A DNA stretch of 64,000 bases from the NCBI RefSeq assembly GCF_000244915.1, contig NZ_CM001442.1, forward strand, positions 496,001 to 560,000. Reading direction: 5' to 3'. Each line of letters starts with the position of its first letter. Position 1 is the stretch's first letter. The DNA comes from Bradyrhizobium sp. WSM471 (GTDB lineage: Bacteria > Pseudomonadota > Alphaproteobacteria > Rhizobiales > Xanthobacteraceae). The position numbers and the translations under genes are program-made. Shown piece after piece: positions 12,680-36,841 of this stretch. Under the pieces are notes generated by a model. The model was given only the letters and a program-made list of their open reading frames with translations. It was not told the DNA's origin and ran no database searches.

Positions 12680-13528
12680 ATGAATGTAACGCAGCTCGAC
12701 ATTTCCCGACGCACGATCGCGGTGGCCGCAGCCCTCATCGGCACGGTGTCGCTCGTGATCGGCGCCCATGCTGCCCTCAACATGCGGGCGCTCGATGCCG
12801 CCAAGGCCATTTCGACCGACCAGGTCACCGGCTCGATCGGCCAGGCCTCGCGTCTCGCCCTCGTCATCGGCAATGGGCACTACCCCGACGCCAACGCGCC
12901 GCTGACCCAGTCGATCAACGACGCCCGTGCGCTGTCCTCGTCGCTGCGCAAGAACGGTTTTGACGTCGACATGGTGGAAGACGCGACCAAGGACGACATG
13001 GTCCGCGCCGTCAATCGCCTGAAGTCCCGGATCAAGCGCGACACCGTCGTCATGCTGTTCTTCGGCGGCTACGGCGTGCAGGCCGGCCGCGAGAGCTACA
13101 TGCTGCCGGTCGATGCCGCGATCTGGAAGGAAAACGATGTCCGCCGTCAGGGCGTCTCCATCGAGGGCGTGCTCGACATGATGAAGGAGCAGGGCGCCAA
13201 GGCCAAGCTCGTCGTGGTCGACGCCTCCCGCCGCAATCCCTATGAGCGCCGCTTCCGCTCCTACAGCCACGGCCTCGCGCCGATCAGCGCGACCGACAAT
13301 GCGCTGATCCTCTCCTCGGCTTCGCCGGGCAAGGTCGTCGACGACGGCAAGGGCGAGCACAGCGTACTGGTCAGCGAGTTCCTCAACAACCTCAATGCGC
13401 AGGGCAGCGCCGAGAGCGTCTTCAACAAGACCCGCCTTGCCATCTCCCGCGCCAGCGAAGGCGACCAGGTCCCGTCCGTCTCCTCCTCGCTGCTCGAGGA
13501 CGTCCATTTCGGCGAAGCCGGCGGCTAG
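12680..13528 (+). CDS. Caspase-fold (peptidase C14-like) protein lacking both catalytic residues
   Basis: A 282-aa protein with an N-terminal membrane anchor or signal (about residues 10-32) and a caspase-like domain from about residue 57 (RLALVIGNGHYPD, typical strand 1) to 260. In active bacterial C14 proteins the His motif reads roughly FSGHG; here it is FFGGYGVQ, with Tyr131 in place of His. The Cys motif usually reads DACRNNP; here it is VDASRRNPYERRFR, with Ser183 in place of Cys (codon TCC). The fold markers are otherwise well kept, so this is probably a pseudo-enzyme acting as scaffold or sensor, outside the cytoplasm. A longer TPR-bearing paralogue at 35330 has the same losses. It is convergent with an orphan HlyD-like adaptor gene. 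Confidence 0.85.
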   Translation: MNVTQLDISRRTIAVAAALIGTVSLVIGAHAALNMRALDAAKAISTDQVTGSIGQASRLALVIGNGHYPDANAPLTQSINDARALSSSLRKNGFDVDMVEDATKDDMVRAVNRLKSRIKRDTVVMLFFGGYGVQAGRESYMLPVDAAIWKENDVRRQGVSIEGVLDMMKEQGAKAKLVVVDASRRNPYERRFRSYSHGLAPISATDNALILSSASPGKVVDDGKGEHSVLVSEFLNNLNAQGSAESVFNKTRLAISRASEGDQVPSVSSSLLEDVHFGEAGG

Positions 13529-13549
13529 CTTTCTTAGGTTCTGCGAAGT

Positions 13550-13688
13550 CTCGTGCCCCGGACGCGGCGCATCATGCAATGATGCGACGCTGAGCCGGGG
13601 CCCAGTTTTTTAGGTTGTCGCTTGGACGGGAGATGGGTCCCGGCTCTGCGCGGCAGCGTTACACGCTGCAGCGCGTCCGGGACACGAG
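13550..13688. repeat. Intergenic palindromic repeat, family E
   Basis: Arms CTCGTGCCCCGGACGC and GCGTCCGGGACACGAG pair with one mismatch and enclose smaller hairpins (GCATCATGCAATGATGC; GCAGCGTTACACGCTGC). It fills the gap between the convergent caspase-fold and adaptor genes. Confidence 0.8.
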
Positions 13689-13694
13689 CCAACC

Positions 13695-14579
13695 CTACTT
13701 CGCCGCTTCCGCGGCCATCACGGTGCGCACCGGATCGCCTTCGCGCAGCAGCGCGCCGGCGCGGGCGACGACGATGTCGCCTTCGTTGAGGCCGTCGCGA
13801 ATCTCGATATTTCCGCCCGACATCAGTCCGACCTCGACGCGCTTGGTCTCGACGCGGTTGCGGCGGATCACCTGAACGACGGTGCCGGCGGAGGAATACT
13901 GCACCGATGTCAGCGGCACCGCGACGTTGCAGCTCTGGCCCGACTTGATCAGCGCACGGCCGCTCGCATTCAGCAACAGGCGTTTCTGCGAGGAGATGCC
14001 GATATAGACCATGCCCTGCTGGATGTTCGGCTCGACCGTCGGGCCGATGCGGCGCACCTTGCCGTCGATATCGCCGGCGCCGGCGATGCGCACGCTCGCC
14101 ACCTGGTTGACCGCGAGCTTGCGCATATCGCTGGTCGCGACGAGGGCGACCAGATCGTACTCGCTGCGCGCCACGATCGTGAACAGCGCCTCGCCCTTGG
14201 CGGAGGCGAGGTTGCCGATCTGCGCGGTCGACGTTGCGATCACGCCTGCCACGGGGGCGGTGACCTGAAGCGTGCCGCCCTCGGGCAGCGCCAGCCGCGC
14301 CAGCACCTGGCCTGCGGTGGTGGTGTCGCCGGCTTCCGCCAGCACCTCCGTCACCTTCAGGCCGGGTCGCTCCGGCCGCACCGAGCTTGCCTCGCGCGCG
14401 ATGATGGTGCCGGTGCCCTCGACGATGTCGGAGAAACAGGATTTTGCGACCTTCAGCACCGTGACCGCCGGGCCCTTGGGCGCGTCGTCATCGGCGGCAG
14501 CGGGCTGGGCCGACAGCAACACCAGTCCGGTGAGCGCAACGAGATGTCTGGAAACAGAACGCGCAGGCAATGAACGCAT
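13695..14579 (-). CDS. HlyD/RND-type periplasmic adaptor, orphan
   Basis: A 294-aa periplasmic protein with a cleavable signal (ending near SAQPAAAD). The order is barrel-sandwich (lipoyl) half, a short linker with little or no alpha hairpin, second lipoyl half (VTAPVAGVIATSTAQIGN), beta-barrel and membrane-proximal domain (IRDGLNEGDIVVARAGALLREGD). It is clearly a paralogue of the adaptor at 33424: both share a CFSD motif near the N-terminus (Cys48 here) and an SCxVAVP motif near the C-terminus, a cysteine pair that could form a disulphide. Unlike that paralogue it has no RND pump or outer-membrane factor beside it, so it must serve a pump elsewhere or have another role. Confidence 0.85.
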   Translation of the reverse strand: MRSLPARSVSRHLVALTGLVLLSAQPAAADDDAPKGPAVTVLKVAKSCFSDIVEGTGTIIAREASSVRPERPGLKVTEVLAEAGDTTTAGQVLARLALPEGGTLQVTAPVAGVIATSTAQIGNLASAKGEALFTIVARSEYDLVALVATSDMRKLAVNQVASVRIAGAGDIDGKVRRIGPTVEPNIQQGMVYIGISSQKRLLLNASGRALIKSGQSCNVAVPLTSVQYSSAGTVVQVIRRNRVETKRVEVGLMSGGNIEIRDGLNEGDIVVARAGALLREGDPVRTVMAAEAAK

Positions 14580-14672
14580 GGGTCATTCCGGTTGGGGCCT
14601 TGACGGCCTCATCGTTAGCAGAAGCGATCGCGGCGGACCATGGGCCGGCCGAATGAGAATGCCGCAGCCGCA

Positions 14673-14693
14673 CGGGCGGCGTGATGCCGCCCG
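14673..14693. terminator. Strong GC hairpin, possible terminator
   Basis: CGGGCGGC and GCCGCCCG form a perfect eight-base stem around the loop GTGAT. There is no long T run on either side, so termination is uncertain; it could end transcripts leaving the lactonase gene. Confidence 0.35.
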
Positions 14694-14747
14694 TTGAATT
14701 AGTCTACGGGCCGGCGCCAAGGTTCGCTGTCTCCCTCCGTCCCTGCG

Positions 14748-14867
14748 GCCATCCTTCGAGACGCCCGCCTGCGGCGGGCCCTCAGGATGAGGTCGTGCTT
14801 CGCGGCGAGATGTCAGACCCTCATGGTGAGGAGCCCGCCAAAGCGGGCGTCTCGAACCATGCAGGCC
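14748..14867. repeat. Intergenic palindromic repeat, family F (copy 1)
   Basis: Starts GGCCATCCTTCGAGACGC and continues to CCCTCAGGATGAGG, followed by a second half CCTCATGGTGAGGAGCCCGC...GTCTCGAACCATGCAGG. The same family occurs at 22231 and 38030. Confidence 0.8.
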
Positions 14868-14901
14868 GAACTCATCCCCCAGCCTCCAAAGGGGAGCAAT
14901 C

Positions 14902-16026
14902 TCACGGCAGGCTCAAGAACTCCACCCAGTTCGGCTTCTTGCCGGTGGCGTAGGACTTCAGCTTGGCGAGCGCGCCGCTGCTCTGGTCGATGGCATAGAC
15001 CGTCATGCTGTCGGAGAGCTCGCCGACCGCGGCGAGGTAGCGCCCGCCGGGATCGATGTGGAAGCTGCGTGGCTGCTTCTCGGTCGGCACGCTGCCGATC
15101 GTGGTCAGCTTGCCGCTGGTTGCATCGACCTTGTAGGCGGTGAGCGTGCTGGTGGTGCGCTCGGAGGCGTAGAGGAAACGGCCGTCGGGAGTGATGTGAA
15201 TGTCGGCGGCCCAGGGCTTCCCGGTAAATCCTTCCGGCAGCGCGCTGGTACGCTGGATCTCGTCCCATGCGCCGCCCTTGGCCTCATAGGCGAACGCCGC
15301 GACGTCGCCGTTCAGTTCGTGCAGGAGATAGACGAACTTGCTGTTGGGGTGGAATACGAAATGCCGCGGCCCCGATTTCTCCGGCACTTTGTGAGCCGGC
15401 GGATCGCTCGGCGTGAGCGTGCCGGTCATGGCGTCGAACGCGAAGGCCAGGATCTGGTCGGAGCCGAGATTGGTCGCGAACGCGAAGCGGTTGTCGGGCG
15501 AGGGCAGGAAGGCGTGCGCGTTCAGCCCGGTCGGGATCACCTGCTTCGGCTCGCCCACGACGCCGTTGGCGAGCAGCGGATTCAGCGCGACCTTGTTGCC
15601 GCCATAGGAGGCGCTGAACAGGAATTTGCCGCCGCGGTCGATGGCGATGTTGGCCATGCTGTCGGCGAGCGGGCCGTTGCCGATATGGCTGAGCTGGCCG
15701 GTCTTGGGATCGATCGCAAAGCTCACCGCGAGAAACGGCTGCGAGCGGACCCCGGCGATCAGCACGCGATGATCGGGCGTGATCGCGAGCGGCGTCGAGG
15801 AGCCGGGCTTTTCGACGCCGGTGAAGGCGGCCGTCTGCACGGGCGTCATCTCGCCGCTCTCGGCCATCTTGAACACGCTGATGTCGTTGCTGTCGGCGTT
15901 GCCGACATAGGCGAAGGTCTCGGCCATGCCGGCGCGGACTCCAGAAATGAGAGTGAGGAAAGCAAGCGTGGTGGCGATCGCGGCGCGGGGTACGCCGGAT
16001 CTGTTACGTCGGGTCGGTCTCAACAT
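14902..16026 (-). CDS. Lactonase-family beta-propeller protein (6-phosphogluconolactonase-like, PF10282 type), exported
   Basis: A 374-aa protein with a signal peptide (residues to about ISGVRAGMAE) followed by a seven-bladed propeller of about 50-residue repeats, with blade starts such as TFAYVGNADSNDISVF, HFVFHPNSKFVYLLHELNGD and IHITPDGRFLYASERTTSTL. The family includes 3-carboxymuconate cyclase-like and 6-phosphogluconolactonase-like lactonases. The ATG at 16026 has an excellent AGGAGG motif; the longer frame to 16101 is not needed. Export argues against a role in the cytoplasmic pentose phosphate pathway; a periplasmic sugar-lactone or other lactone hydrolase is more likely. It stands alone. 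Confidence 0.88.
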   Translation of the reverse strand: MLRPTRRNRSGVPRAAIATTLAFLTLISGVRAGMAETFAYVGNADSNDISVFKMAESGEMTPVQTAAFTGVEKPGSSTPLAITPDHRVLIAGVRSQPFLAVSFAIDPKTGQLSHIGNGPLADSMANIAIDRGGKFLFSASYGGNKVALNPLLANGVVGEPKQVIPTGLNAHAFLPSPDNRFAFATNLGSDQILAFAFDAMTGTLTPSDPPAHKVPEKSGPRHFVFHPNSKFVYLLHELNGDVAAFAYEAKGGAWDEIQRTSALPEGFTGKPWAADIHITPDGRFLYASERTTSTLTAYKVDATSGKLTTIGSVPTEKQPRSFHIDPGGRYLAAVGELSDSMTVYAIDQSSGALAKLKSYATGKKPNWVEFLSLP

Positions 16027-16147
16027 GGGGTCCTCCTGGATGCCGGTGCGGCATTTGTCGTTTTGCCGGCGAGGATAGCGGCAGCCGCCCCGCTGCACCA
16101 AATTCCAATTGGGATCGATCGATGCCGAAATGGTATCGGTGGGAGAC

Positions 16148-16300
16148 CTACCGTATCGCCGCTGTGCGGGAGGGCAGATGGGGCCCGGGCGGGGTGTGGG
16201 GCGGCCCGAGCACGGTCCACACGGTGACCGCGAGCAGCGCGCAGGTCAGGATCGTCCAGGCGACGAGTGGTTTCCGCATCAGGCCGAATCCGTCAGTCAT
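16148..16300 (-). CDS. Possible small membrane protein, 50 aa
   Basis: A short frame starting at ATG 16300 encodes one clear membrane segment (about LVAWTILTCALLAVTVWTVL) followed by a Pro-rich tail. A GGGAGC motif lies somewhat far upstream. It precedes the lactonase gene on the same strand. Nothing recognisable; real small membrane proteins look like this, but so do chance frames in GC-rich DNA. Confidence 0.35.
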   Translation of the reverse strand: MTDGFGLMRKPLVAWTILTCALLAVTVWTVLGPPHTPPGPHLPSRTAAIR

Positions 16301-16690
16301 ATGAATGAGAATGCTCCCGGAGGCGGGCCTGGCGATCGTGCACTGCAAATCGCGGCGATCCTATGAACTCGTTCACAGGCGAACCGAACCAATGCCGCGC
16401 GAGCGCATTGAACCGGCATGCCCCGTGAAAACGATCTTGAAGGTAAGCCCGACATGGGCGGCAAGCATGGCGGTCAGGCCGGCCAGCCCAAGTCGCCGCC
16501 GCGCCCGCGTCAGGGCGAGCGCGATGAGGACGTCGTGGCAAAGCGCCACACCGGCCAAACCGATCCCGACTCCGCGCCGACCAAACCAAAATAGCACCTC
16601 GCCCGCGCCGCCCGCGCACCGGGAACGGCAGCCTCACCTTGCCGTTACCCTGATCCCGCGGGCGGAGCAGATCGAAACGGAGGCTGGCAC
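16301..16690. other. 390-bp region with no firm gene
   Basis: A minus-strand frame at 16373-16597 (GTG start) encodes 74 residues with hydrophobic stretches (GIGLAGVALCHDVLIALAL) but has no convincing ribosome binding site, so I do not call it. No repeat was seen here. The 3' end holds the ribosome binding site for the small gene at 16691. Confidence 0.4.
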
Positions 16691-16813
16691 GTGTTTTGGA
16701 TTTATTGGGACACCGCCTGGTCGCTGATCATCAGCGGCATCATGTTCGCCACCATCGTCGCGCATCCCGACGCCGAGTTCGTCGAGATCCACGCGGCCAA
16801 CCAGTCGAAGTGA
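16691..16813 (+). CDS. Small membrane protein candidate, 40 aa
   Basis: Starts at GTG 16691 with GGAGG seven bases upstream, the best ribosome binding site in this gene-poor stretch. The product begins VFWIYWDTAWSLIISGIMFA and ends with a charged tail (HPDAEFVEIHAANQSK). It has one membrane segment with aromatic residues at the front. It is too short for ordinary gene callers. I recognise no family. The strong start signal, single membrane span and hydrophilic C-terminus argue for a real small protein. Confidence 0.5.
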   Translation: MFWIYWDTAWSLIISGIMFATIVAHPDAEFVEIHAANQSK

Positions 16814-16873
16814 CCCGCAACTCCGATCAGCCGCCCATGCTGCGCCGCGCCCTGGACACCGGAATTCATAATC

Positions 16874-17233: not shown

Positions 17234-17449
17234 ATCGCTTGGCTCATGTTTTACGCACGCGCGAACGCGCGGGCAAAATGGCTTGCCACGCGCGTGATGC
17301 ATGCTGCCTGGTGCTCGCCGGCCGGAGTTCCAGCCGTCGAGCAGAGCGATAATCGCGAGCCGTGAGGTTTGATCCTATTTTCTTGGGACACGAATTCAGG
17401 TGGCGCGACCACTGATCGTCACCATGGCATCGCGGCGAAGGAGCCGGCC

Positions 17450-22205: not shown

Positions 22206-22230
22206 AGGCGGCGCTTCGCCGCCGCGCCTG

Positions 22231-23943: not shown

Positions 23944-26391
23944 CTACCCGCGCCGCCTTGCCGCGGCGGCATCCACCACGTTCTCCACCTCCTCGCGCCA
24001 CGACAGGATCTCCATCGCGAGCACGGGGTGGTTGAAGCCCTTGAGCACGAGATCGTCGAGCGCGCGGGCTTCGACCCAGGGCTCGACCATGCCGTAGACG
24101 CGGCGGCTGACGACGACCTGGCCGGCCTTGGCTTCGTCGCAGAGCCGGGAGGAGAGATTGGTGACGCTGCCGATCGCAGCATATTCGAGCCGCTGCTCGA
24201 AGCCGATCTGGCCGAGCGTGGCGTAGCCCATGGCGACACCGACGCCGAAGCCGAGCGAGTGGCCGCGGTTCTTCCATTTCTCGGTCAATTGGCCAATCAC
24301 ATCGCGCATCTCGACCGCCATCTTCACGGCGCGCTTGGTATGGTCGGCGAACTGAATCGGCGCGTTGAACAGGATCATCACGCCGTCGCCGGCAAAGCGG
24401 TCGAGCGTGCCTTCATAGCGATGGATCAGCTCGCCGAGCGCGGCGTGATATTCGCGCAGCACGTTCATCGCCTCTTCCGGCTCGGTCGCCTCGGTGAACG
24501 AGGTGAAGCCGCGCAGATCGCAGAACACGACGGTCACCTCGCGGCGATGGCTGTCGAGCAGCGCGTCGTGGCCGTCGGACGAGGCGATCAGCTGCGCGAC
24601 TTGCGGGGCGAGGAAACGTTCGAGCCGCTTGATGCGGCCGATCTCCCCCAACTGTTTCTCGACTCGCTCTTCCAGCGAGCGGTTCCAGTTGCGCAGCTGC
24701 TCGGTCTGCTCCTGGAGCTTGGCGGCCTGCTGCTGCACGGTTTCGTGCGCAGCCGCGAGCTCGCGGCCCTTGTGGTCGACCTCGGTGAACAGCCGCGCAT
24801 TGCGCATCGCCAGCACGGCCTGGTTGGCGAAGGTACGCATCAGGCCGATGATGCTTGGGGCGAACTCGCCGCTGGCGCGGCGCAGCACCACCAGCGAGCC
24901 GAGCGTGCCCTGTTGGTCGACCAGCGGCACCACCAGCACCGAATGGAAGCCGGCCTCGAGCGCGACGTCACGCAACGGCTGCTCGGAGGCCTGGTCGAGA
25001 TCGGCAATCACGATCGGCTCGCCGCTCCCGGCCGCATCGCTCAAGATATTCTCGCCTTCGTCGATGGTGACATGGGCGCCGTCGGCGGATTTGTCGATGC
25101 CGTTGGCCTCGACCAGATTGAAGCGGCGCGCCTCGGCATCATAGCCGTAGATCAGCACGGCGTCGGCATGGGTGATCTCGATCGCGCGCGCGGCGATGGT
25201 CGGCAGCACGGCGTTGAGATCGAGCGAGGCCGCGACCGCGCGGCCGACCTCTTCCAGCACCTTGAGCTCGTTGATCGACTGCGCGAGATCGCGGGTGCGC
25301 TCCTCGACCTTGGTCTCCAAATCCGAATAGGTCTCCTGGATCTGGTCGGCCATGCGGTTGAACTGGCCGGCGAGATCTTCCAGCTCGTCCGAGGTGTGCA
25401 CCTCGATGCGATGGCTGAAGTCGCCCTCGCCGAGCTTGTGCGCGCCGTCGCGCAGCGCGGTGATCGGAATGATCATGCGGCGGGCGAGCAGCGTGCCGGC
25501 GAGGATCGCGACCAGCAGGCCCATGCCGATCAAAAGCGCAATGCGCACCAGCTGGTCGCGGATCGGCATCAGGGCCTGCGTGGTCGGTTGCTCGAACATC
25601 ACGCTCCAGCCGAGCTTCGGCACGGTGCTTGCGGCGCTCATCACCGCATGGCCATTGAAGTCGGTGCCCGAATTGTCGGGCTCGTGGGCTGGCGCGACCG
25701 CGGCCGCAACCTGCGGCAGCTTCGAAAGGTCCTTGCCGACCTCAGGCCCTTTCGAGGACGTCGCCAGCACGCGGCCGCGCGGATCGACCACATAGGCGAA
25801 GGCGGCCTTGCCGACCTGGGCGTCGGAGAGGTACTCGGAGAGAAAGCTGAGATCGAGCTCGGCCACGGTGACGCCGGCGTTGAAACCGGAATGCGCCACC
25901 GAGATCGACATGAACGGCGTCCGGTCGGAGAACCAGGCCGGCGCGTAGCTGACGCCGCGGGCGACTGTGTCGGTGAAGCGCATGTCGCGGGAGAGATCGG
26001 CATTGCTGCCGGTCGTGGTCGACTGGCGCGAGACGCGCAGCACCTCGCGGCCGTCACCGTTGAGCTGGAACAGCTGAGTGACGACCGAGACCTGGTGCAG
26101 CAGCTGGGCGTAGTCGGCGCGGCGCTTCTCGAGCGTGTCCTGGCTCGCCCGCGTCACCCAGCTGATCTGGCGCTCGAGCTCGGAGATCGACTGCTCGATC
26201 CGCCGCGCGGCAGCCTGCGCCTTGTCCTCGAGACCGTCGGTCAGCTGGGTCTTGGTAGCGCGGTAGGAGATCCAGCTCTCCATCGCGCCGTTGACGGCGA
26301 GCACGAACACGACCAGGCCGACGAGAGAGACGACGTATTTGGCGAACAGACCCTCGCGCAGAAACCGTGTCTTGTCGTTCGCTCCTGCCAT
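23944..26391 (-). CDS. Membrane sensor class III adenylate/guanylate cyclase (CACHE-HAMP-GAF-cyclase)
   Basis: An 815-aa protein with an N-terminal membrane span (about 18-40), a periplasmic CACHE-like domain, a second span (IALLIGMGLLVAILAGTLLA), a HAMP domain (IIPITALRDGAHKLGEGDFS), a coiled coil, a GAF domain (about 400-540), another coiled coil and a C-terminal class III cyclase domain. The two metal aspartates are visible in VVFCDLRGFTSF and FAGDGVMILF, and the transition-state Asn/Arg in SVTNLSSRL. It would make cAMP (or cGMP) in response to an extracytoplasmic signal. The ATG at 26391 has GAGG seven bases upstream. A Crp/Fnr regulator gene lies 2.6 kb away and might be a downstream effector; this link is inference. 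Confidence 0.92.
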   Translation of the reverse strand: MAGANDKTRFLREGLFAKYVVSLVGLVVFVLAVNGAMESWISYRATKTQLTDGLEDKAQAAARRIEQSISELERQISWVTRASQDTLEKRRADYAQLLHQVSVVTQLFQLNGDGREVLRVSRQSTTTGSNADLSRDMRFTDTVARGVSYAPAWFSDRTPFMSISVAHSGFNAGVTVAELDLSFLSEYLSDAQVGKAAFAYVVDPRGRVLATSSKGPEVGKDLSKLPQVAAAVAPAHEPDNSGTDFNGHAVMSAASTVPKLGWSVMFEQPTTQALMPIRDQLVRIALLIGMGLLVAILAGTLLARRMIIPITALRDGAHKLGEGDFSHRIEVHTSDELEDLAGQFNRMADQIQETYSDLETKVEERTRDLAQSINELKVLEEVGRAVAASLDLNAVLPTIAARAIEITHADAVLIYGYDAEARRFNLVEANGIDKSADGAHVTIDEGENILSDAAGSGEPIVIADLDQASEQPLRDVALEAGFHSVLVVPLVDQQGTLGSLVVLRRASGEFAPSIIGLMRTFANQAVLAMRNARLFTEVDHKGRELAAAHETVQQQAAKLQEQTEQLRNWNRSLEERVEKQLGEIGRIKRLERFLAPQVAQLIASSDGHDALLDSHRREVTVVFCDLRGFTSFTEATEPEEAMNVLREYHAALGELIHRYEGTLDRFAGDGVMILFNAPIQFADHTKRAVKMAVEMRDVIGQLTEKWKNRGHSLGFGVGVAMGYATLGQIGFEQRLEYAAIGSVTNLSSRLCDEAKAGQVVVSRRVYGMVEPWVEARALDDLVLKGFNHPVLAMEILSWREEVENVVDAAAARRRG

Positions 26392-26685: not shown

Positions 26686-28758
26686 TCATCGATTAAAAAG
26701 CTGCCGCAGCACGTCGTTCATCGGCTGGCTGTCCTGCTGCGCCGCCGGCGGGTCCTCCAGGCCGGAGGGGGCCGGCGAGGCTTGCGGCATCAATGTGGAT
26801 GGCGCTGCAGGCAGGCTGCGGCTGCGGCCGGTGGCAGTGCCGGTGCCGTTTCCCGCACCACTGGAAAGTCCCTGCTGGATCAGATTGCCGAGCGCCTCGC
26901 CCAGGGGGCCGCCGAGCAAATTGTTCTGTCCCGGCTGCTGGGCTTGCGGATTGGCATTGCCGGCCGCATTGCCGCCACCCGGCGCGGCGGTCCCTCCGAG
27001 ACCAAGGTTGCTGCCAAGGCTGCCCAAAATATTGCCGAGCCCGGCCCCATCAGCGCCGAACAGCCCCTTGCCCATCTCGCGCAGCTTGGCATAGGCGGCG
27101 TCCGGATTGTCCAGCATGCCGGCCATGTCAGGATAGATCCGCGGCTGCGACCAGGGGCCCTGGATCATCACGGGGATGCCGAAGCCGACCGGCTCGGCGG
27201 CGCGACCCTGGCCCTCAGTCGTCATCACCAGCTTCGGCTCGACGCGAAAGCCCATCATCTTGGTGTCGAGTGCGACCGTGCCGGCGCCGGTCACGCGGAC
27301 CAGCGGTCCGGTCAAGTTGAGATCGGTCGTCACCGCCTGGCCCTTGTCGATCCGAAACGACGCCGAGAGCTGCGACAAATCCGTGCTCTGCTCCCGACTG
27401 TTGTCCTGGTTTGCCTGCCAGCCGGACAGCGTGCCCGATGTCAGCGAGCGGATCATCTGTGCGACGTTGATGCCGCGAATGGCGCCGTCCTGGAAATTGA
27501 CGAAGGCCGTGCCCTGCATGTTCGCCATCAGCGCGCGCTGGCTGGTGCCGGCGCTGCGCAGTGCGAGCTTGGCCTGCAGCTTGCCGTCGATCCGGTCGAA
27601 TTCGGCGAGGCCCTGCAGCAGCGGCAGCGCGCGCACGCCGGCGAGATCGGAATGCATGGCAAAGCTCGGCGCGCCGCTGGTCGCATCCAGGATCAATTCG
27701 CCCGTGACCTGGCCGCCATAGGCGCCGAGATTGGCGGTGCCGGCCTTCAGCACGCCGCCGGCGAGTTTTGCATCGACCGCCAGCGGCGCGAGGCGTGCAT
27801 CGCCGATCACCGCCTCGTGCGCGGAGATCCTGATTTGCGCATCGACATAGTTGAGCCCGGACACATCGATCGGCGCATCGCTCCAGGGCTGCCCGGACGC
27901 GCCTTCCGGCGATTTCGCCAGCGGAATCGCGAGCCGCTGGAAGTCGAGATCGACCTTGACCAGAGGCTTGCTCGCGATATCGACCGAGGCCCAGCCGTTG
28001 AACGCGCCATCGCCGAGCGTGCCACTCACGCCGTTGATCATCACGACGTCGCCACTAAGCCGCATCTCGGCATGACCCGCGAGCCGGGACTTCAGCACGT
28101 CCGGCATGTCGATGGCGAAATCCACCGGAATGGTCGGCCGGTCGGCCGGCGGCGCCGGCGTGGTCGCCTTGATGTCGAACTTGGTCGGATGCTCGCCGAC
28201 CCGTGCGGTGCCGGTGATATTGATCTTGCGATCACGGCCGACGATCGCATCGGCATTGACGGCGCTGATGCGGCTCTCGACGCGATCGCGCACGCGCGCG
28301 AATGCGATCTCGCCATCGGTGACCTTGATACGGTCGATGGCGGCACCCTCGGTATCGAGCGCGACCGGCTTCGACGTGCCGCCGGCATTCGGCAGGCGCT
28401 CACGCAGCAGCGGCTGGTAGAGCACGGGATGGGTGACGACGAGCTCGCTGATCTTGGGGCGGCCCGACCAGACGCTCGAGAGCGACATGTCGGCCTGCAC
28501 GCTCTCGATGGTCAAGCGCGTGATGCCGCTGCGGTCCTTGGGGTCGGCAAGCGTGAGGTCGTTCAGCGTCACGTTCAGCGTCGGCCACAGGCTGATTCGG
28601 GTCGTGCCGTCGATCGACAGGCGATAGCCGGTCGCGTTCTCGACCCGCGAGGCAATCGTCGACGTCAGGAAGCCCGAGGGGATTCCGACCACCAGCAGGA
28701 GTGCGATCACGATGACGACTGCGGCCACCGCCGCGCCGGCGAATTTCACTGCTCTCAT
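26686..28758 (-). CDS. AsmA family protein
   Basis: A 690-aa protein with one N-terminal anchor (FAGAAVAAVVIVIALLLVVG) followed by an AsmA N-terminal domain (VENATGYRLSIDGTTRISLW, typical of the family) and a C-terminal AsmA-like domain (GTAFVNFQDGAIRGINVAQM). The last 120 residues are a Gly/Pro/Gln-rich tail. AsmA-like proteins are periplasmic, anchored in the inner membrane, and are thought to influence outer-membrane assembly and lipid transport. GGAAGG precedes the ATG at 28758. It is divergent from the Crp/Fnr gene, with 235 bases between. Confidence 0.9.
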   Translation of the reverse strand: MRAVKFAGAAVAAVVIVIALLLVVGIPSGFLTSTIASRVENATGYRLSIDGTTRISLWPTLNVTLNDLTLADPKDRSGITRLTIESVQADMSLSSVWSGRPKISELVVTHPVLYQPLLRERLPNAGGTSKPVALDTEGAAIDRIKVTDGEIAFARVRDRVESRISAVNADAIVGRDRKINITGTARVGEHPTKFDIKATTPAPPADRPTIPVDFAIDMPDVLKSRLAGHAEMRLSGDVVMINGVSGTLGDGAFNGWASVDIASKPLVKVDLDFQRLAIPLAKSPEGASGQPWSDAPIDVSGLNYVDAQIRISAHEAVIGDARLAPLAVDAKLAGGVLKAGTANLGAYGGQVTGELILDATSGAPSFAMHSDLAGVRALPLLQGLAEFDRIDGKLQAKLALRSAGTSQRALMANMQGTAFVNFQDGAIRGINVAQMIRSLTSGTLSGWQANQDNSREQSTDLSQLSASFRIDKGQAVTTDLNLTGPLVRVTGAGTVALDTKMMGFRVEPKLVMTTEGQGRAAEPVGFGIPVMIQGPWSQPRIYPDMAGMLDNPDAAYAKLREMGKGLFGADGAGLGNILGSLGSNLGLGGTAAPGGGNAAGNANPQAQQPGQNNLLGGPLGEALGNLIQQGLSSGAGNGTGTATGRSRSLPAAPSTLMPQASPAPSGLEDPPAAQQDSQPMNDVLRQLFNR

Positions 28759-28898: not shown

Positions 28899-28914
28899 TG
28901 TGACTTATGGCACA
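28899..28914. promoter_or_regulatory. Crp-like half-symmetric site
   Basis: TGTGACTTATGGCACA matches the TGTGA-N6-TCACA pattern with one mismatch (GCACA). It lies about 80 bases upstream of the Crp/Fnr-family ATG in the divergent region with asmA, so it could mediate autoregulation. Identified by eye only. Confidence 0.45.
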
Positions 28915-29668: not shown

Positions 29669-29675
29669 GATGCAA

Positions 29676-30244: not shown

Positions 30245-30274
30245 CCTTGTGAAACCCTGTCGCTCGCCCGGAAC

Positions 30275-33200
30275 CTACTCCGCCGCAGGGTGCACGATGT
30301 TTTGCGGCCCTGGTGCCGCTCCCACCGGCGCCGCCTCGTGATGACCGGCGTCCTCCGCATCTTCGCTGTGCACGACCAGCCGCTTGGCGAAGCGCCAGAT
30401 CAGGGCGCCGAGATCGTCCATCACCATGAACATCGCGGGCACGAACACCAGCGACAGGATGGTCGAGAAGATCAGGCCGCCGATCACCGCGAGCGCCATC
30501 GGCGAGCGGAACTCGCCACCCGCACCGACCGCGAGCGCGCTTGGCATCATGCCCGCGGCCATCGCGATCGTGGTCATCACGATCGGGCGGGCGCGTTTCA
30601 TGCCCGCGTCGATCATGGCTTCTTCGCGCGGTGTGCCGGCGTGAATGGATTCGATGGCGAATTCCACCAGCATGATCGCGTTCTTGGTGACGATGCCCAT
30701 CAGCATCAGGATGCCGATCCACACCGGTGTCGTGAGCTGCTTGCCGGTGATCAGCAGGGCCGCGATCGCGCCGCCGATCGAGAGCGGCAGCGAGAACAGA
30801 ATGGTGATCGGCTGCAGGAAGGTGCCGAACAGCAGCACCAGCACGGCGTAGACCATCATCAGGCCCGCCGTGATCGCGGTAGCGAAGCCTTCGGACAGTT
30901 CGTTCAGGCTTTCGGCGTCGCCAGAGGGGGAGACCTTCACGCCCTTCGGCCGGCTCTTCATGACCGGAAGGTCGTAGATCTTCTTGGTGGCGTCGCCGAG
31001 CGCGGCGGAGCCGACGAGATCGGCTGCGACGGTGGCCTGTCGTTCGCGATCGTAACGGTTGATGCTGGTCGGCCCCTGGTCGAGCTTGACGTCGGCGATG
31101 ACGGAGAGCGGCACGCCGCCTTTCTCGCCATGCTCGCCGAGCGGCACGCGCAACTGTTCGAGCGTCTTCAGATTGCCGCGCGCGGCATCCTCGAGCTGCA
31201 CGCGGATCGGCACCAGACGGTCGCCGACGTCGAACTTGGCGAGCGCGGGGCCGACGTCGCCGATGGTGGCGACGCGGATGGTCTGCGACAGGCTTTCGGT
31301 CGAGACGCCGAGCCGTGCGGCGAGATCGGCACGCGGTTCGACGCGCAGCTCGGGTCGCTCCAGCGTGGTTTCCGAGATCACGTTGGAGATGGTGGGAATC
31401 CGCTTCATCTGCGTCGCGAGTTCGCTGGCGACGTTGTTGACGATGTTGGCGTCGGCGCCGGTCACGACCAGCGAGATGGCGCGCAGGCCGTTCTCGTCGA
31501 GGAACCAGAAGCGGATGTCCGGAATGTTCTCCAGCTCCTGGCTGATCGAGAATTCGAGCTCGCGCTGGGTGATGTCGCGGCTGTCCTTGGGCGTGTAGTT
31601 GATGATCAAGGCGGCGCGCCGGACTTCCTGGGTCCCCGGTGGAACGCGGCCGCCGTCGACGAAGATGCTCTTCACCTCGGGTCGCTTGCGCAGGCGCGCC
31701 ACGATGTCTTCGGTGACTTTTTCAGTGTAGGCGAGCTGGGTGCCTGGCGGCAGCTCGAGGGCAACCAGCGAGCGCGAGCTGTCCTGCGCCGGCAGGAAAC
31801 CCTGAGGCAGCAGCGTGATGCTCCAGATCGAGGCGGCGAAGACGCCGAAGCCGACCAGCACCGTAATGAAATAGTGCTTCACCGACCAGGCCACGAGCCT
31901 GTGATAGGACCGCAGCACGCGGCCGGGCGGCGGCTCCTGGTGATTGCTATGTTTGAGGAAGTAGGCGGCGAGCACCGGCGTGACGAAGCGCGCCGCGAGC
32001 AGCGAGAAGAACACCTGCACCGAGACGGTGATGCCGAACTGCTTGAAGAACTGTCCGGCGATGCCCGACATGAAGCTCGCGGGTGCGAAGATCGCGATGA
32101 TCGTCAGCGAGATCGCGATCACCGCGAGGCCGATCTCGTCGGCGGCTTCCAGGGCGGCACGATAGGGCGATTTGCCCATGTTCATGTGCCTGACGATGTT
32201 CTCGATCTCGACGATAGCGTCGTCGACCAGAATACCAGTCGACAGCGTAATGGCGAGGAAGCTGACGAGGTTGAGCGAGAAGCCGAGCAGGTCCATCGCC
32301 CAGAACGCCGGGAAGATCGACAACGGCAGCGAGATCGCGGCGATGATGGTGGCGCGCAGGTCGCGCAGGAACAACAACACGATGACGACGGCGAGGATGG
32401 CGCCTTCGAACAGTGTCGAGATCGCCGCGTGGTAATTGCCGTTGGTATATTCGACCGAGGTGTCGATCACCTTCAGGTCGACGTCGGGATAGGTGGCCTT
32501 GAGCGTGTCGATGCGCTTCTGCACGGCCTCGGCGACCTTCACGTCGCTGGCACCCTTGGAGCGCTTGATGCCGAGCGCGACGATCGGCTCGCCGTTGAAG
32601 CGGGCGAAGGTGCGGCGGTCTGCGATGGTGTCGGTGACGGTGCCGAGATCGTCGAGCCGGACCTCGCCGCCGCCGAACAGCGGAATCATGGTGCCGGCGA
32701 GGTCGCTCAGCGTCTTGGCGCCGGCGAGGGTGCGGATCGCCTGGTCGTTCTTGCCGATCTCGGCGCGGCCGCCGGCGACGTCGACATTGGTGCCGCGCAG
32801 GCTCTGGCTGACATTGACGGCCGTCAGCCCCATCGACTGCAGGCGGTCGGGATCGAGCGAGACCAGGATCTCGCGCTCGACACCGCCGATGCGCTCGACC
32901 TGGGCGACGCCGCGCACGCCCTGCAGCGCGCGCTTGACCACGTCGTCAACGAAATAGGAGAGCTGCTCCGGCGTCTTGCCCGGCGAGATCGCGGCGTAGG
33001 TAACGATCGGCAGGCCGATGACGTCGACGCGCTGGATCAGCGGCTCGGTGACGTTCTGCGGCAGGTTCGAGCGCACGCGCGTCACCGCGTCCTTGACGTC
33101 GTTGAGCGCGCGGTCGGTGTTGGTTTCCAGCGCGAACTGGATCGTCGTCACCGACAAGCCGTCGGTGATCTGCGAGGTAATGTGCCTGACGCCTTCGACG

Positions 33201-33424
33201 CCGGAGACGGCGTCTTCAACCGTCTTGGTGACCTGGGATTCGAGCTCGGCGGGTGCCGCGCCGAACTGCGATACCGCGACCGAGATCACGGGAATGTCGG
33301 CCGAGGGTAACCGCGTCACTGCGAGCTTGGTGAAGGACACCCAGCCGAGGATCAGGAGGATGATGGAAAATACGACCGACGGCAGCGGGTTGCGGATCGA
33401 CCATGCCGAGATATTGAGAGCCAT
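30275..33424 (-). CDS. RND multidrug efflux permease (HAE1/AcrB type)
   Basis: A 1049-aa inner-membrane proton antiporter of the hydrophobe/amphiphile efflux family. It has the usual N-terminal span, a large periplasmic loop, six spans, a second loop and six more spans. The proton-relay Asp pair is in LSTGILVDDAIVEIEN, and a second family motif is in LMGIVTKNAIMLVEFA. Full length. Its start shares one base with the adaptor stop (TGATG), so pump and adaptor are translationally coupled. No outer-membrane factor gene (TolC/OprM) is in the cluster; an OmpA-like gene lies upstream instead. Substrate unknown. Confidence 0.93.
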   Translation of the reverse strand: MALNISAWSIRNPLPSVVFSIILLILGWVSFTKLAVTRLPSADIPVISVAVSQFGAAPAELESQVTKTVEDAVSGVEGVRHITSQITDGLSVTTIQFALETNTDRALNDVKDAVTRVRSNLPQNVTEPLIQRVDVIGLPIVTYAAISPGKTPEQLSYFVDDVVKRALQGVRGVAQVERIGGVEREILVSLDPDRLQSMGLTAVNVSQSLRGTNVDVAGGRAEIGKNDQAIRTLAGAKTLSDLAGTMIPLFGGGEVRLDDLGTVTDTIADRRTFARFNGEPIVALGIKRSKGASDVKVAEAVQKRIDTLKATYPDVDLKVIDTSVEYTNGNYHAAISTLFEGAILAVVIVLLFLRDLRATIIAAISLPLSIFPAFWAMDLLGFSLNLVSFLAITLSTGILVDDAIVEIENIVRHMNMGKSPYRAALEAADEIGLAVIAISLTIIAIFAPASFMSGIAGQFFKQFGITVSVQVFFSLLAARFVTPVLAAYFLKHSNHQEPPPGRVLRSYHRLVAWSVKHYFITVLVGFGVFAASIWSITLLPQGFLPAQDSSRSLVALELPPGTQLAYTEKVTEDIVARLRKRPEVKSIFVDGGRVPPGTQEVRRAALIINYTPKDSRDITQRELEFSISQELENIPDIRFWFLDENGLRAISLVVTGADANIVNNVASELATQMKRIPTISNVISETTLERPELRVEPRADLAARLGVSTESLSQTIRVATIGDVGPALAKFDVGDRLVPIRVQLEDAARGNLKTLEQLRVPLGEHGEKGGVPLSVIADVKLDQGPTSINRYDRERQATVAADLVGSAALGDATKKIYDLPVMKSRPKGVKVSPSGDAESLNELSEGFATAITAGLMMVYAVLVLLFGTFLQPITILFSLPLSIGGAIAALLITGKQLTTPVWIGILMLMGIVTKNAIMLVEFAIESIHAGTPREEAMIDAGMKRARPIVMTTIAMAAGMMPSALAVGAGGEFRSPMALAVIGGLIFSTILSLVFVPAMFMVMDDLGALIWRFAKRLVVHSEDAEDAGHHEAAPVGAAPGPQNIVHPAAE

Positions 33425-34353
33425 CAGCGTACCCGCGTGCGATCGAGTTCATCAGCGAACATGGTCTTGATCTGGTCGCCGTCATGCAGCGAAGAGCCGG
33501 CGTCGGCGACGACGATTTCGCCCACGTTGAGGCCTTCCAGGATTTCCGTCGCGCTGTCCGACGACAGCCCGACCCGTACCTTGCGCGTCTCGACAATGTT
33601 GCTCTTGACGACCTGCACGGTGAGATGGTCGATCGCGGTCTTGGGAACCGCGACGCCGCAGCTGCGCTTGGCGTCGATGGAGGCGCGGGCGAACACGCCG
33701 ACTTTCAGCGAGGGATTGTTGGTGACGCTGATGCGCACGCGGCCGAGCTGGGTGGCGCGATCGATTTCGGGGGCGACCAGCCTGACCCGCCCGATCAGAT
33801 CGGGCGCGTCGTCGCGGCTGATGCGCACGGTCGCGCCGGAGCTGAGCTTGGCCATGTGCACAGCAGGCACCTGCGCGTCCAGCTCGATCTCGTTGTTGAC
33901 GGCGATGCGGAACATCGGGCCGGCCTGCGGCGAGGCCGGCGCGCCGACGATGGTGCGGACCTCGGTGACGAGGCCCGGCGCAGAGGCTTTCAGCGAGACC
34001 GGACCTTGCGGGCCGGGCCGCTGCGGCTGGCCCGGGATCTGGGGCGGTGCGGTCAGGCGCGCCAGCTCCTGATTGTCCGTGACGAGGGTGCCCTCGGTGA
34101 CGAAGAGGTCGGTGACCCTGGATCCCTCCTGGTCGGCGATAACAACGGCTTCGCGGCGCGGCACGAAGAAGCCGGTCACCCGGACCAGGTCCGAGAAGCA
34201 GGCATTGGTCGATTTGGTCACGATGACCAGCGCCTCGCTCGGGGTTTCCTTGGGCTCGGCGCGGTGCCGGTGCTCGAACAGATAATAGCCGACGCCGAGC
34301 GCGATGACGAAGACCACCGTTCCGGCCGGCTTGAGATATTGGGAGAGGTTCAT
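33424..34353 (-). CDS. RND efflux periplasmic adaptor
   Basis: A 309-aa membrane-fusion protein with an N-terminal anchor (AGTVVFVIALGVGYYLF). The lipoyl halves (TDLFVTEGTLVTDNQELARL and KASAPGLVTEVRTIVGAPAS) are joined by a Pro/Gln-rich linker (QIPGQPQRPGPQGPV) instead of a long alpha hairpin. CFSD (Cys52) and SCGVAVP match the orphan adaptor at 13695. ATG 34353 chosen for its anchor; AGGA lies about ten bases upstream. It overlaps the pump gene by one base. The short hairpin suggests an unusual contact with the outer-membrane factor. Confidence 0.9.
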   Translation of the reverse strand: MNLSQYLKPAGTVVFVIALGVGYYLFEHRHRAEPKETPSEALVIVTKSTNACFSDLVRVTGFFVPRREAVVIADQEGSRVTDLFVTEGTLVTDNQELARLTAPPQIPGQPQRPGPQGPVSLKASAPGLVTEVRTIVGAPASPQAGPMFRIAVNNEIELDAQVPAVHMAKLSSGATVRISRDDAPDLIGRVRLVAPEIDRATQLGRVRISVTNNPSLKVGVFARASIDAKRSCGVAVPKTAIDHLTVQVVKSNIVETRKVRVGLSSDSATEILEGLNVGEIVVADAGSSLHDGDQIKTMFADELDRTRVR

Positions 34354-34419
34354 TGCCGGATCGTCCTGGCCTGGCTCACGGCCATCCGCGCGCGGCCCAT
34401 GGAGAGCGTTTCCCTGAAA

Positions 34420-34450
34420 TAAAGCAGCGTCCCGCAAGCCTGCGGGACGC
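34420..34450 (-). terminator. Intrinsic terminator after the ompA-like gene
   Basis: GCGTCCCGCA and TGCGGGACGC form a perfect ten-base stem with a four-base loop. Reading on the minus strand it is followed by TGCTTTATTT. It lies 60 bases after the OmpA-like stop, separating that gene from the efflux operon. Confidence 0.75.
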
Positions 34451-34511
34451 GCGCTGGAAGCGAGACTTTACACCACATCACGACTTGTCACTTCAAAGGA
34501 TTACGTCGTGC

Positions 34512-35183
34512 TCACTTCGATGCGGTGGTCTTGTTTTCCATGTTGACGACCTGCACGCGACGATTGACCTCCGCCATCGGCTGGGCCGGGTCCTTCAGCT
34601 TGCTCTTGCCGTAGCCGACCGTGACGAGGTCGGTCGCGGAGATGCTGTACTTTTCGACCAAATAGCGCTTGATCGAATCCGCGCGGCGCTCCGACAGATC
34701 CTGATTGTAGCTCTCGCCGCCGGCGGCGTCCGTGTGGCCGGCGACCACGAAGGTCGAGCCTTTCAGGTCGGGGCTGGTCAGCGCGCGGCCGAGCGCCTGG
34801 ACCGAGGCAAGTGATTTGGCGCTGATATTGGCCGAGTTGTAGTCGAACGTGATTTCCAGATCGATGTTCGGCTTGTCCTTGGCCGCCGACGCGATTTCTT
34901 CGCGCTCGGTCGACGACAGCGACCGTGTCGAGCGGCCGCGCACGGACTGGATCAGCTTGGTCTCCGTCGCACTTGGTGCGGGATCGGCCTGCGGAGCGAT
35001 CGAGAGGCCGCGGGTCAGCGGCTTCTTCGACGGCGGCGCCAGCGCGCGGACGATCTCGTCCTCGGTGACGTTCTTGCTGTTGCCGTCGTCGCCCGCGAAT
35101 GCCAGCGGGATCGTCAGCGACAGCGCGGCGCCAACGGTGATGATGGACAGGATTGCGGTAAGTCCCTTTGCAGCCAATCTCAT
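34512..35183 (-). CDS. OmpA family peptidoglycan-associated protein
   Basis: A 223-aa exported protein with a signal peptide (to about IPLAFAGDDG), an acidic/helical middle and a C-terminal OmpA domain (LEITFDYNSANISAKSLASV, VAGHTDAAGGESYNQDLSER, AEVNRRVQVV). The domain binds peptidoglycan through its Asp/Arg pair. There is no transmembrane barrel, so it is a periplasmic or lipoprotein-like wall-binding protein. GGAGGG precedes the ATG. It lies directly downstream of the TPR caspase-fold gene on the same strand, 146 bases apart. Confidence 0.88.
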   Translation of the reverse strand: MRLAAKGLTAILSIITVGAALSLTIPLAFAGDDGNSKNVTEDEIVRALAPPSKKPLTRGLSIAPQADPAPSATETKLIQSVRGRSTRSLSSTEREEIASAAKDKPNIDLEITFDYNSANISAKSLASVQALGRALTSPDLKGSTFVVAGHTDAAGGESYNQDLSERRADSIKRYLVEKYSISATDLVTVGYGKSKLKDPAQPMAEVNRRVQVVNMENKTTASK

Positions 35184-35235
35184 AGCCAGTCCCTCCTGCG
35201 CAGCCAGCTGGCGCGGTTCGAAAATCCTGTAGTAA

Positions 35236-35258
35236 GCCGCCCCGAAAAGGCGGGCGGT
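35236..35258. terminator. Weak candidate hairpin between caspase-fold and ompA-like genes
   Basis: CCGCCC and GGGCGG face each other around a GAAAAGG-type loop. No T run follows, so it may attenuate rather than terminate readthrough. Confidence 0.3.
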
Positions 35259-35329
35259 GACATCCGTTCAATTAGTCTTCGCCGGGCCGTCGCGGGTTCG
35301 AGGCACATCGGCCCCAATTCAAAAAAATA

Positions 35330-36841
35330 TCAACGCACTCCGTAGCTTGCGAATTCCTGAACAATGTTCGGGTCCATTGCCTTGGCATTGGCGATGTCGA
35401 GTGCACCTTCCTGGGCCGAGCCGTTGCGCTGCTTGGCGATCCCGCGTCCGAACAGCGAGGAGGTCAGGCGCGGATTGATCCTCAGGGCAGCCTCGAAATC
35501 GGCGATGGCGTTCTTCACCGCCCCCGATTTCAGATTGACGAGCCCCCGGCTGTCCAGCGCGTCGACGAAGTTCGGTCGCAGCCGCAGGGCCTCGTTGCAA
35601 TCCTTCAGCGCGCCCTGGAGGTCGCCGACCACGGTGCGGGTCCAGCAGCGATTGTTCAGCGCCTCGACATCCTTCGGATTGATCCGGAGCGTCTCGTCAA
35701 AATCCTTGATGGCCAGGCTGTAGGCGCCCTTGCTGGCATAGACCTGGCCGCGCCGGTAAAGCGCGTTCACGTCGTCCGGATTGGCCGCGATCTTGGCGGT
35801 CAGCCCCTTGATCGTGGGGTCCTCGGCCAGCACGGCCGCACTCGGCCCGCTCTCCATGCTCGGAGCGGTGACGGGATCGGCCGGAATCACAGGCGGAGGC
35901 GGCGGCGGTGCCGGCGGGAAGGCAGCCTCGACCTGCGGCTTCGGCGACGGAGCCGGTGCTGCCACTGTGTCGGCCGGTTTCGGCGGCACAGGTGGTGGCG
36001 CGGGCGGAGCCGGCGGCGGGTTGTTGGCGACGACCGGCGGCGGCGCGGGAGGCGCAGGTGGTGGCGTCGTCGTCGGGCGCGAGCCACCGGCCCCCGGAAT
36101 GAACGAGAAATCCTCGGCCAGTGACGAGGATATCCACGGCACCTGCTCGCCCCTGGAGGCGCGGGTGACGCCCATCTTGGTGCGGTTCAGCGTCTCCTCG
36201 GCCATCAGGTCGGGGACGCGGATTTCCTTGAGGAGCTCCTGGACGAACAGGCTGTGCTCGCCGCCAACGTCCGAAACCACCGAGGCCAGCGCCGCCGAAT
36301 ACATCACAAGGGTGCCGTTCGGCGCGATGACGGGGGTGAGGCCGGCCGAGAAGCTGCGGAACCGGCGCTCGAACGGGTTGCGCCTGGAGGCATCGACCAG
36401 CGCGATCTTGACGCCGGCGCCGCGGGTGTTGAGCTCGCCGAGCACGGTTTCGAGGCTGATGCCGTCGCGCCGCACGTCGGATTCGGTCCAGATCTGCGCA
36501 TCGATCGGCAGCAAATAGCTCTGCCGCGCCGACTGGATGCCGAAGCCGCTGAAGAACACCAGTGCCACCGAGCCCGGCTTGATCTTGCCGTAGAGCTTGT
36601 CGAAGGCACGGCGCATGCCGTCGCCGGTCAGGTTCTCACCGATCTCGACGGAAAAGCCGTCGCGCTTGAGCTCGTCGGCGATGTCGCGCGCGTCGTTGAG
36701 CGGTTCCTTCAGGGGAGCGTCGGCGTCCGGATATTTGGCATTGCCGATGACCAGCGCAAAGCGATCGCCGGCCGCAAGTGACGGAGCGGTCGGGATGAGC
36801 GACACGAGCAAGGACAGAACGAAAAGCAGGCGAATTTTCAT
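35330..36841 (-). CDS. Exported caspase-fold pseudo-peptidase with Pro-rich linker and TPR repeats
   Basis: A 503-aa protein: signal peptide (MKIRLLFVLSLLVSLIPTAP), caspase-like domain (about 25-245, DRFALVIGNAKYPDADAPL), Pro-rich linker (about 256-325), and three TPR-like units (about 343-460, for example NALYRRGQVYASKGAYSLAI, DALDSRGLVNLKSGAVKNAI). As in the 12680 protein, the catalytic His is missing (FFSGFGIQ, Phe100) and the Cys is Ser (VDASRRNPFERRFR, Ser152). The two proteins share the DVRR-x-G-[VI]-S and RRNP[YF]ERRFRS blocks, so they are paralogues. The export signal and TPRs suggest a periplasmic protein-interaction scaffold. It heads a same-strand run with the OmpA-like and efflux genes. 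Confidence 0.88.
   Translation of the reverse strand: MKIRLLFVLSLLVSLIPTAPSLAAGDRFALVIGNAKYPDADAPLKEPLNDARDIADELKRDGFSVEIGENLTGDGMRRAFDKLYGKIKPGSVALVFFSGFGIQSARQSYLLPIDAQIWTESDVRRDGISLETVLGELNTRGAGVKIALVDASRRNPFERRFRSFSAGLTPVIAPNGTLVMYSAALASVVSDVGGEHSLFVQELLKEIRVPDLMAEETLNRTKMGVTRASRGEQVPWISSSLAEDFSFIPGAGGSRPTTTPPPAPPAPPPVVANNPPPAPPAPPPVPPKPADTVAAPAPSPKPQVEAAFPPAPPPPPPVIPADPVTAPSMESGPSAAVLAEDPTIKGLTAKIAANPDDVNALYRRGQVYASKGAYSLAIKDFDETLRINPKDVEALNNRCWTRTVVGDLQGALKDCNEALRLRPNFVDALDSRGLVNLKSGAVKNAIADFEAALRINPRLTSSLFGRGIAKQRNGSAQEGALDIANAKAMDPNIVQEFASYGVR

Follow-up and report, generated by a model that had tools for sequence, protein, structure and literature searches.

Dead caspase homologues in a putative cyclic-nucleotide-controlled envelope export locus of Bradyrhizobium

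Caspase homologues that have lost the catalytic His-Cys dyad are already on record: YS, FS, YA and HA pseudo-orthocaspases of Rhizobiales, with tetratricopeptide repeats (TPRs) in the FS ones, have been published (Klemencic et al. 2019, PMC6426788). The role of prokaryotic caspase homologues is an open question, and the dead ones are the hardest to assay. Among exporters of the resistance-nodulation-division (RND) type, the adaptor BesA has a loop of nine residues between its lipoyl halves, and the hairpin of other adaptors reaches up to 90 residues (PMC3807786). The consensus of Clr, a regulator of Sinorhizobium meliloti, is HGTYHCNNNNGRWACA (PMC10127613). Here we describe a locus of Bradyrhizobium sp. 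WSM471 in which two dead caspase homologues (casp1 and casp2), two RND adaptors (adap1 and adap2), an RND permease and a CRP-type regulator are encoded close together. The window, the whole stretch analysed, comprises 64,000 nucleotides of a 7.78 Mb genome (positions 496,001 to 560,000 of contig NZ_CM001442.1; G000:C1:496001-560000 in our numbering), and coordinates are counted from its first letter. Judged from sequence, this is probably one cyclic-nucleotide-controlled envelope export locus and not two caspase-adaptor modules.

Both caspase homologues match Peptidase_C14 (PF00656) far above the Pfam cut-off: casp1 (12680..13528, plus strand, 282 residues) with an E-value of 1e-37, and casp2 (35330..36841, minus strand, 503 residues, with a Pro-rich linker and C-terminal TPRs) with 4.4e-35. 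They are 48% identical across 232 columns, and casp2 is by far the nearest to casp1 among the 23 caspase-fold matches of the genome (2.7e-69; the next is 9.7e-35). An initial annotation of the window had noticed that the two share the block RRNP[YF]ERRFRS and that both lack the dyad, and alignments bore this out. Among relatives, casp1 has Tyr/Ser and casp2 Phe/Ser at the dyad positions; aligned with MALT1, casp1 places Tyr and Ser at the catalytic His and Cys. By eye, casp1 N-termini read SRR or a variant of it, a hydrophobic stretch and then AHA or ANA (SRR and AHA in the window's casp1), and most casp2 rows, the window's included, start with a Sec-type signal.

The loss of the dyad extends to a whole clade. 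In a p20 tree of 80 rows (a short search with Shimodaira-Hasegawa-like approximate likelihood ratio test, SH-aLRT, support only), 62 rows formed a dead clade and 18 lay outside it. Near-identical rows were removed before the caspase and adaptor trees alike. In a fuller alignment set, the Cys position of the dead clade is Ser in 57 of 69 rows, Ala in 12 and Cys in none, and in 65 rows Tyr, Phe, Ile or Val takes the place of the His; His-Cys is intact in 18/18 rows outside, which come from the genome of the window and, in relatives, from genes neighbouring the locus. Of the 21 other caspase-fold matches in the genome of the window, the dyad alignment took in 11, one as two rows; it left out 5'-cut fragments, rows lacking the caspase anchor motif and rows shorter than 200 residues. 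By sequence, casp1 and casp2 are pseudo-orthocaspases, with a p20 fold and a replaced His-Cys pair, and presumably without proteolytic activity. At eight loci of relatives (L120, L122, L126, L129, L136, L140, L142 and L168), a caspase homologue with an intact dyad is also present near the dead casp2.

The association of caspase and adaptor seen in this window recurs well beyond its genome. Across 149 genomes of the family, with caspases counted at E up to 1e-42 and adaptor rows below 115 bits left out (these were incomplete matches, plus a fragment at the end of a contig in G247), full-length adaptors were found in 48, a second adaptor in 44 of these, and the caspase in 51. All 48 adaptor-bearing genomes, from 15 genera, hold the caspase and just three genomes have the caspase alone, so the association is not due to chance. 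By genus (n = 47, kinship ignored), 15 have both families, three the caspase only and 29 neither. In 145 genomes from other families of the order the dead-clade caspase was not found (E up to 1e-40), and adaptor matches there were partial by match span.

As to linkage, 38 of the 48 genomes (13 genera) have casp2 no more than 5 kb from adap2, 24 of the 35 casp1-bearing genomes have casp1 that close to adap1, and in 36 genomes at most 30 kb separates two adaptors. The order across the family is casp2, OmpA-domain gene, adap2, RND permease, AsmA-family gene, nucleotide cyclase and adap1, with the CRP-type regulator gene on the opposite strand. A second block, in which casp1 is divergent from a gene of a family that we call P0013, flanks this pump cluster. 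The window keeps the family order, but 9,364 bases intervene between the cyclase gene and adap1, with genes for a lactonase, a GGDEF-EAL protein and others. Many other loci likewise have the AsmA and cyclase genes between RND and adap1 and the CRP-type gene on the other strand. In genus g113 some 8.5 kb accommodate the order casp2-OmpA-adap2-RND-adap1 and a convergent casp1 (L111, L112); distances in three further genomes of that genus (G173, G233, G252) agree with this, and in G285 casp1 lies elsewhere. The deep genus g98 has the parts dispersed, and a short His/Ala dead caspase present there might be a counterpart of casp1.

In some genomes the two blocks have come apart. In eight of the 35 with casp1 (G154, G175, G197, G213, G253, G270, G285 and G286), casp1 and adap1 are over 200 kb apart or on different contigs, casp1 having neighbours of its own. 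The separated casp1 adjoins the P0013 gene in seven of them and in G285 is near two further neighbours of the P0013 block; adap1 remains next to the pump in seven, whereas that of G286 adjoins the CRP, AsmA and cyclase genes at a contig end. Because casp1 keeps its P0013 block and adap1 keeps the pump cluster, the casp1-adap1 junction is a seam between two blocks, not a pair. The initial annotation had proposed a repeated pairing of a caspase gene with an adaptor gene; that part was not supported, since casp2-OmpA-adap2-RND is collinear in most loci seen and casp1-adap1 is only the seam. On linkage, we also reject two equal caspase-adaptor loci.

Among named genomes, we kept 80 of the 159 loci found. 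Of these, 77 are labelled Bradyrhizobium and the others Frankia sp. RB7, bacterium and Hyphomicrobiales bacterium. Where the flank was long enough, casp2 and OmpA were each present in 69/70 loci, RND in 77/77, CRP in 68/73, AsmA in 66/73 and the cyclase in 61/71; because almost all belong to one genus, this conservation is partly plain synteny. Among the loci kept, the nearest relative of adap2 is that of B. canariense BTA-1 (99%). The contig labelled Frankia sp. RB7 (L206) encodes a Bradyrhizobium-type adap2 with 91% identity, and is perhaps a mislabelled or mixed assembly.

The single adaptor family suggested at the outset also stands. Both adap2 (33424..34353, minus strand) and adap1 (13695..14579, minus strand) are RND-type adaptors by Pfam and NCBIfam; they share 34% identity across 287 columns together with the motifs CFSD and SC-x-VAVP, and they are the only two strong matches in the genome (5.7e-199 and 5.8e-35; the next is 1.3e-7). 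The adaptor tree separates adap1-type and adap2-type sequences by a branch into two clades. In alignments holding 30 of the 45 adap2 and 27 of the 41 adap1 sequences collected, both cysteine columns (C52/C232 in adap2, C48/C217 in adap1) are Cys in 56 of 57 adaptors, and the remaining one (L130) has lost both; the 25 relatives from other families in the tree have no Cys or one. As the cysteines are conserved as a pair and were once lost as a pair, we infer a disulphide.

An alpha-hairpin for docking to an outer membrane factor (OMF) was found neither in the 57 aligned adaptors nor in a predicted structure of adap2. The linker between the lipoyl halves spans 4-70 residues (median 9; 6-18 in 49/57), and the 70-residue one (L146) is Pro/Ala/Gly-rich by eye. 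The adap2 model (mean predicted local distance difference test score, pLDDT, 87.2; predicted template modelling score, pTM, 0.67) has a helix at residues 8-29 and, between strands 96-101 and 119-122, loop only and zero helices. A fold search with this model returned BesA at ranks 1-8; the best PDB sequence match of both adaptor family profiles was 6vej, a TriA-TriB chain. The adaptors are thus BesA-type in modelled architecture only, with membrane-proximal, barrel and lipoyl domains, without the hairpin, and at an identity of 17-18%. The longest-looking adaptor candidates from the order's other families were, by eye, of a different type: those of G042, G147 and G120 have a long helical-looking hairpin and lack the CFSD/SC-x-VAVP pair, and that of G130:C7, a 501-residue frame, looks CusB-like.

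The RND pump and OmpA-like protein that the initial annotation had placed at the second caspase were both recovered by Pfam. The MdtB-like permease (30275..33424, minus strand) has an ACR_tran domain over its full length and the motifs VDDA and GIVTKNA; by motif, the VDDA acidic pair is at 401-402 and the lysine is Lys 914, the proton-relay residues of AcrB being D407, D408 and K940 (PMC8277102). Its start and the stop of adap2 share one base (TGATG). The OmpA-domain protein (34512..35183, minus strand; PF00691, 2.9e-21) is a putative peptidoglycan binder. Further along the same strand are the genes for an AsmA-family protein (26686..28758; PF05170, 1.4e-29) and a class III nucleotide cyclase (23944..26391) that carries dCache, HAMP and GAF domains. 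No OEP (TolC-family) match was found at the locus.

The CRP-type regulator, P0015 (28907..29668, plus strand; the start may be 28994), combines a cyclic-nucleotide-binding domain with HTH_Crp_2 and the helix AARESVNRQL. It is the sole one of 29 HTH_Crp_2 matches in the genome (25 of them above the cut-off) to have an RExVxR helix (RESVNR), which is kept in 20 of 21 P0015 homologues across the family, the remaining one being cut short. RExVxR is the helix motif of E. coli CRP; such a helix reads TGTGA, and the E. coli CRP operator matches TGTGA-N6-TCACA. With at most one mismatch, this pattern occurs four times in the window against 0.84 expected, and one of 100 shuffles had as many. Perfect sites, for which a strand is not applicable, lie between the P0013 gene and casp1 (12366..12381) and upstream of casp2 (37087..37102); a strandless one-mismatch site lies between the CRP and AsmA genes (28899..28914), and the fourth site, at 16362, is upstream of the lactonase gene. 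The FNR-type pattern TTGA-N6-TCAA was tried as well and set aside: its one window match, at 62679, is off the locus, and one or more matches arose in 32 of 100 shuffles.

Genome-wide, there are 22 perfect copies of TGTGA-N6-TCACA and none of the reversed pattern. Eight of them, two in this locus, are at caspase-fold genes, seven lying 108-299 bases before the matched domain and the eighth at a caspase remnant with an internal stop; the other 14 are not at caspase genes. Under even scatter, eight of 22 would have a P of 5e-16, but that value is an underestimate, since sites of this kind are intergenic. We compared 74 caspase genes of six genomes (all PF00656 matches of five genomes and the 23 matches of the window's own), taking the 550 bases upstream of the matched domain, with distal controls of equal length. 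A site with at most one mismatch was present upstream of 12/23 caspase genes in the window's genome and of 9/19 in G035, with 0/23 and 0/19 in the controls; the two Bradyrhizobium genomes together give 21/42 against 0/42. Of 1024 half-sites, TGTGA has the most perfect matches (12/74 genes, distal 0). At the named loci the casp2 promoter site is kept, with a varying spacer, in 57/68, of which 51 are perfect, and the one-mismatch site in the CRP/AsmA gap in 67/67; the rest of the same 1.53 Mb holds one perfect and 17 one-mismatch sites. A one-mismatch CRP/AsmA site is also found outside Bradyrhizobium, at L118, L119, L120, L126, L165, L166, L274 and L277. Upstream of 22 other CRP-family genes, roughly placed, no site was seen (0/22). 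One further perfect site, 49 bases before a gene at L373 (G000:C1:6336188), precedes a start that looks class III cyclase-like by eye.

These results suggest how the locus might work. The cyclase, with its sensor region, would make cAMP, and the CRP of the locus would bind the operators before casp2, between P0013 and casp1 and between CRP and AsmA; in Bradyrhizobium it may also switch roughly one in two caspase homologues. The pump would extract an amphiphile from the inner membrane with no duct formed by hairpins, the OmpA-domain protein would tether the machine to the wall, and the AsmA-family protein would handle a lipid. A dead caspase, its nucleophile gone but its sequence strongly conserved, could be a protein-binding scaffold acting through its p20 domain and TPRs. 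A lipid-like substrate passed on within the periplasm appears more likely than plain drug efflux, since AsmA and OmpA genes are neighbours of the pump and its adaptors lack the hairpin. Taken to its full extent, the proposal is a Bradyrhizobium caspase regulon in which the sensor cyclase and CRP-type receptor of the locus control the locus itself and, via E. coli-type CRP sites, around half of the genome's intact and dead caspase homologues, while the dead caspases are structural components of an envelope exporter that has two adaptors and works independently of TolC. We put this forward tentatively, as possible but somewhat less probable than its being wrong in at least some part.

Several observations weigh against the regulon or against the exporter. 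Upstream sites are not enriched in the four genomes of other genera (G240 1/12, G192 1/8, G253 0/7 and G208 0/5; distal 0, 1, 1 and 1), which together give 2/32 against 3/32, and the two Bradyrhizobium genomes are not independent because they share orthologues. In one-mismatch counts, CGCCG ties with TGTGA at 23/74 genes each, a tie explained by the distal controls, which have CGCCG at 24/74, against 3/74 for TGTGA. The CRP/AsmA site always carries its one mismatch, and a second regulator, L336, has the similar helix RESINK. The CRP, AsmA and cyclase genes are not at the compact loci L111 and L112. In G240 a casp2-type gene stands with OmpA but without such adaptors. Finally, TolC-family proteins are encoded elsewhere in the window's genome (10 OEP matches in five open frames), and the pump could borrow one. 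The G240 gene itself (L150) has a Val/Ser dyad and lies beside OmpA in a 9.1 Mb genome, where a perfect CRP-type site also occurs near a neighbouring caspase-fold gene.

The strongest competitor takes these last points at face value: an ordinary drug-type RND pump would borrow TolC, and the dead caspases would share a neighbourhood and a regulator with it and be no part of it. Besides the TolC-family genes elsewhere, the parting of casp1 from the pump in 8/35 genomes and the casp2-OmpA pair of G240 fit such a view, as does the report of OmpA in 14 metacaspase operons (PMC3501461). It is harder to square with the dead caspase being kept in 48/48 adaptor genomes, with casp2 lying within 5 kb of adap2 in 38/48 across 13 genera, and with the 145 other-family genomes, in which the dead clade was not found and adaptor matches were partial or of another type; we regard mere neighbourhood as unlikely, though by no means negligible. 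That a caspase-adaptor pair was duplicated as a unit, each dead caspase having its own adaptor, would account for two paralogues in both families and for the 24/35 casp1 genomes with adap1 within 5 kb. Yet a parted casp1 keeps the P0013 block rather than adap1, the two genes are convergent and not an operon, and five genera have two adaptors without a casp1-type gene (bit score 300), which means that adaptor duplication does not track casp1. The trees (short searches, SH-aLRT only) do not support joint duplication of adaptor and caspase either, and we consider it quite improbable.

The replacement of Cys by Ser could also be read as a change of nucleophile that makes these proteins serine-type envelope proteases. 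Ser in 57/69 rows and the well-kept block around it are what such an enzyme would have, but the 12/69 rows with Ala and the Tyr, Phe, Ile or Val at the His position of 65/69 make this highly implausible, the least probable of the alternatives. We consider a single export locus under cyclic-nucleotide control the most probable reading.

The P0013 gene (10526..12253, minus strand; start set at the in-frame ATG at 12253) is divergent from casp1 and its steady neighbour. Sixteen aligned members have invariant YVPDCDTTAC (including DCDTT) and YEWNKMKTPTRI blocks, and relatives are called hypothetical or uncharacterised wherever they are named, among the 120 matches listed of 2188. The window's protein had zero Pfam matches at E up to 10, and among the 16 relatives two weak Pfam families appeared, in 3/16 and 2/16; a 16-row profile had zero PDB matches at E up to 10, and NCBIfam gave zero at 1e-3. 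The predicted structure has a mean pLDDT of 80.8, and its DCDTT motif may resemble one of class II terpene cyclases. At the far side of the window, two adjacent genes (52293-54350 and 54629-56674) with very similar N-termini are apparent tandem paralogues.

The initial annotation had spoken of an undescribed envelope module. The conserved gene set did not come up among the matches listed from the open-licence literature that we searched, and the dead caspases had already been published (PMC6426788); what is new here is their genomic context and the regulatory link. No paper joining orthocaspase, efflux and RND was found in that literature. For metacaspase, peptidase C14 or caspase paired with Bradyrhizobium, OmpA, RND, cAMP or CRP, such a locus or regulon was absent from titles and abstract starts among the matches listed, and caspase homologues as the main target of a CRP or Clr regulon were likewise not met among the matches listed. 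An operator that caspase genes share, together with a candidate regulator and a fixed transporter locus, makes the caspase question one of direct genetics on a dozen caspase genes.

By its domains, P0015 is, like E. coli CRP, a predicted member of the cyclic-nucleotide-dependent CRP family. S. meliloti Clr belongs to this family too, and its motif HGTYHCNNNNGRWACA differs from the TGTGA-N6-TCACA type of site at the locus (PMC10127613). Compared with the published pseudo-orthocaspases (PMC6426788), casp1 and casp2 have the same p20 fold and dyad replacements, and casp2 the same combination of FS with TPRs; unlike the TPR-bearing FS proteins described there, some long casp2 homologues carry a YS dyad. 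The main text of that paper lacks the words neighbo- and operon, and the present locus ties dead caspases to RND genes and a CRP-type operator. TriABC-OpmH of Pseudomonas aeruginosa (PMC8277102) combines one RND permease with two adaptor genes, as here, but our adaptors lack the hairpin, no OMF gene was found at the locus, and OmpA, AsmA, cyclase, CRP and caspase genes are added. BesABC of Borrelia burgdorferi (PMC3807786) shares the adaptor without an alpha-hairpin and the short loop between the lipoyl halves; it differs in having one adaptor and an OMF gene in the operon, and the identity of BesA to our adaptors is just 17-18%. If our interpretation is true, a two-adaptor, hairpin-less RND pump would provide a second test case for the puzzle that BesA poses, of how such a pump reaches or bypasses the outer membrane.

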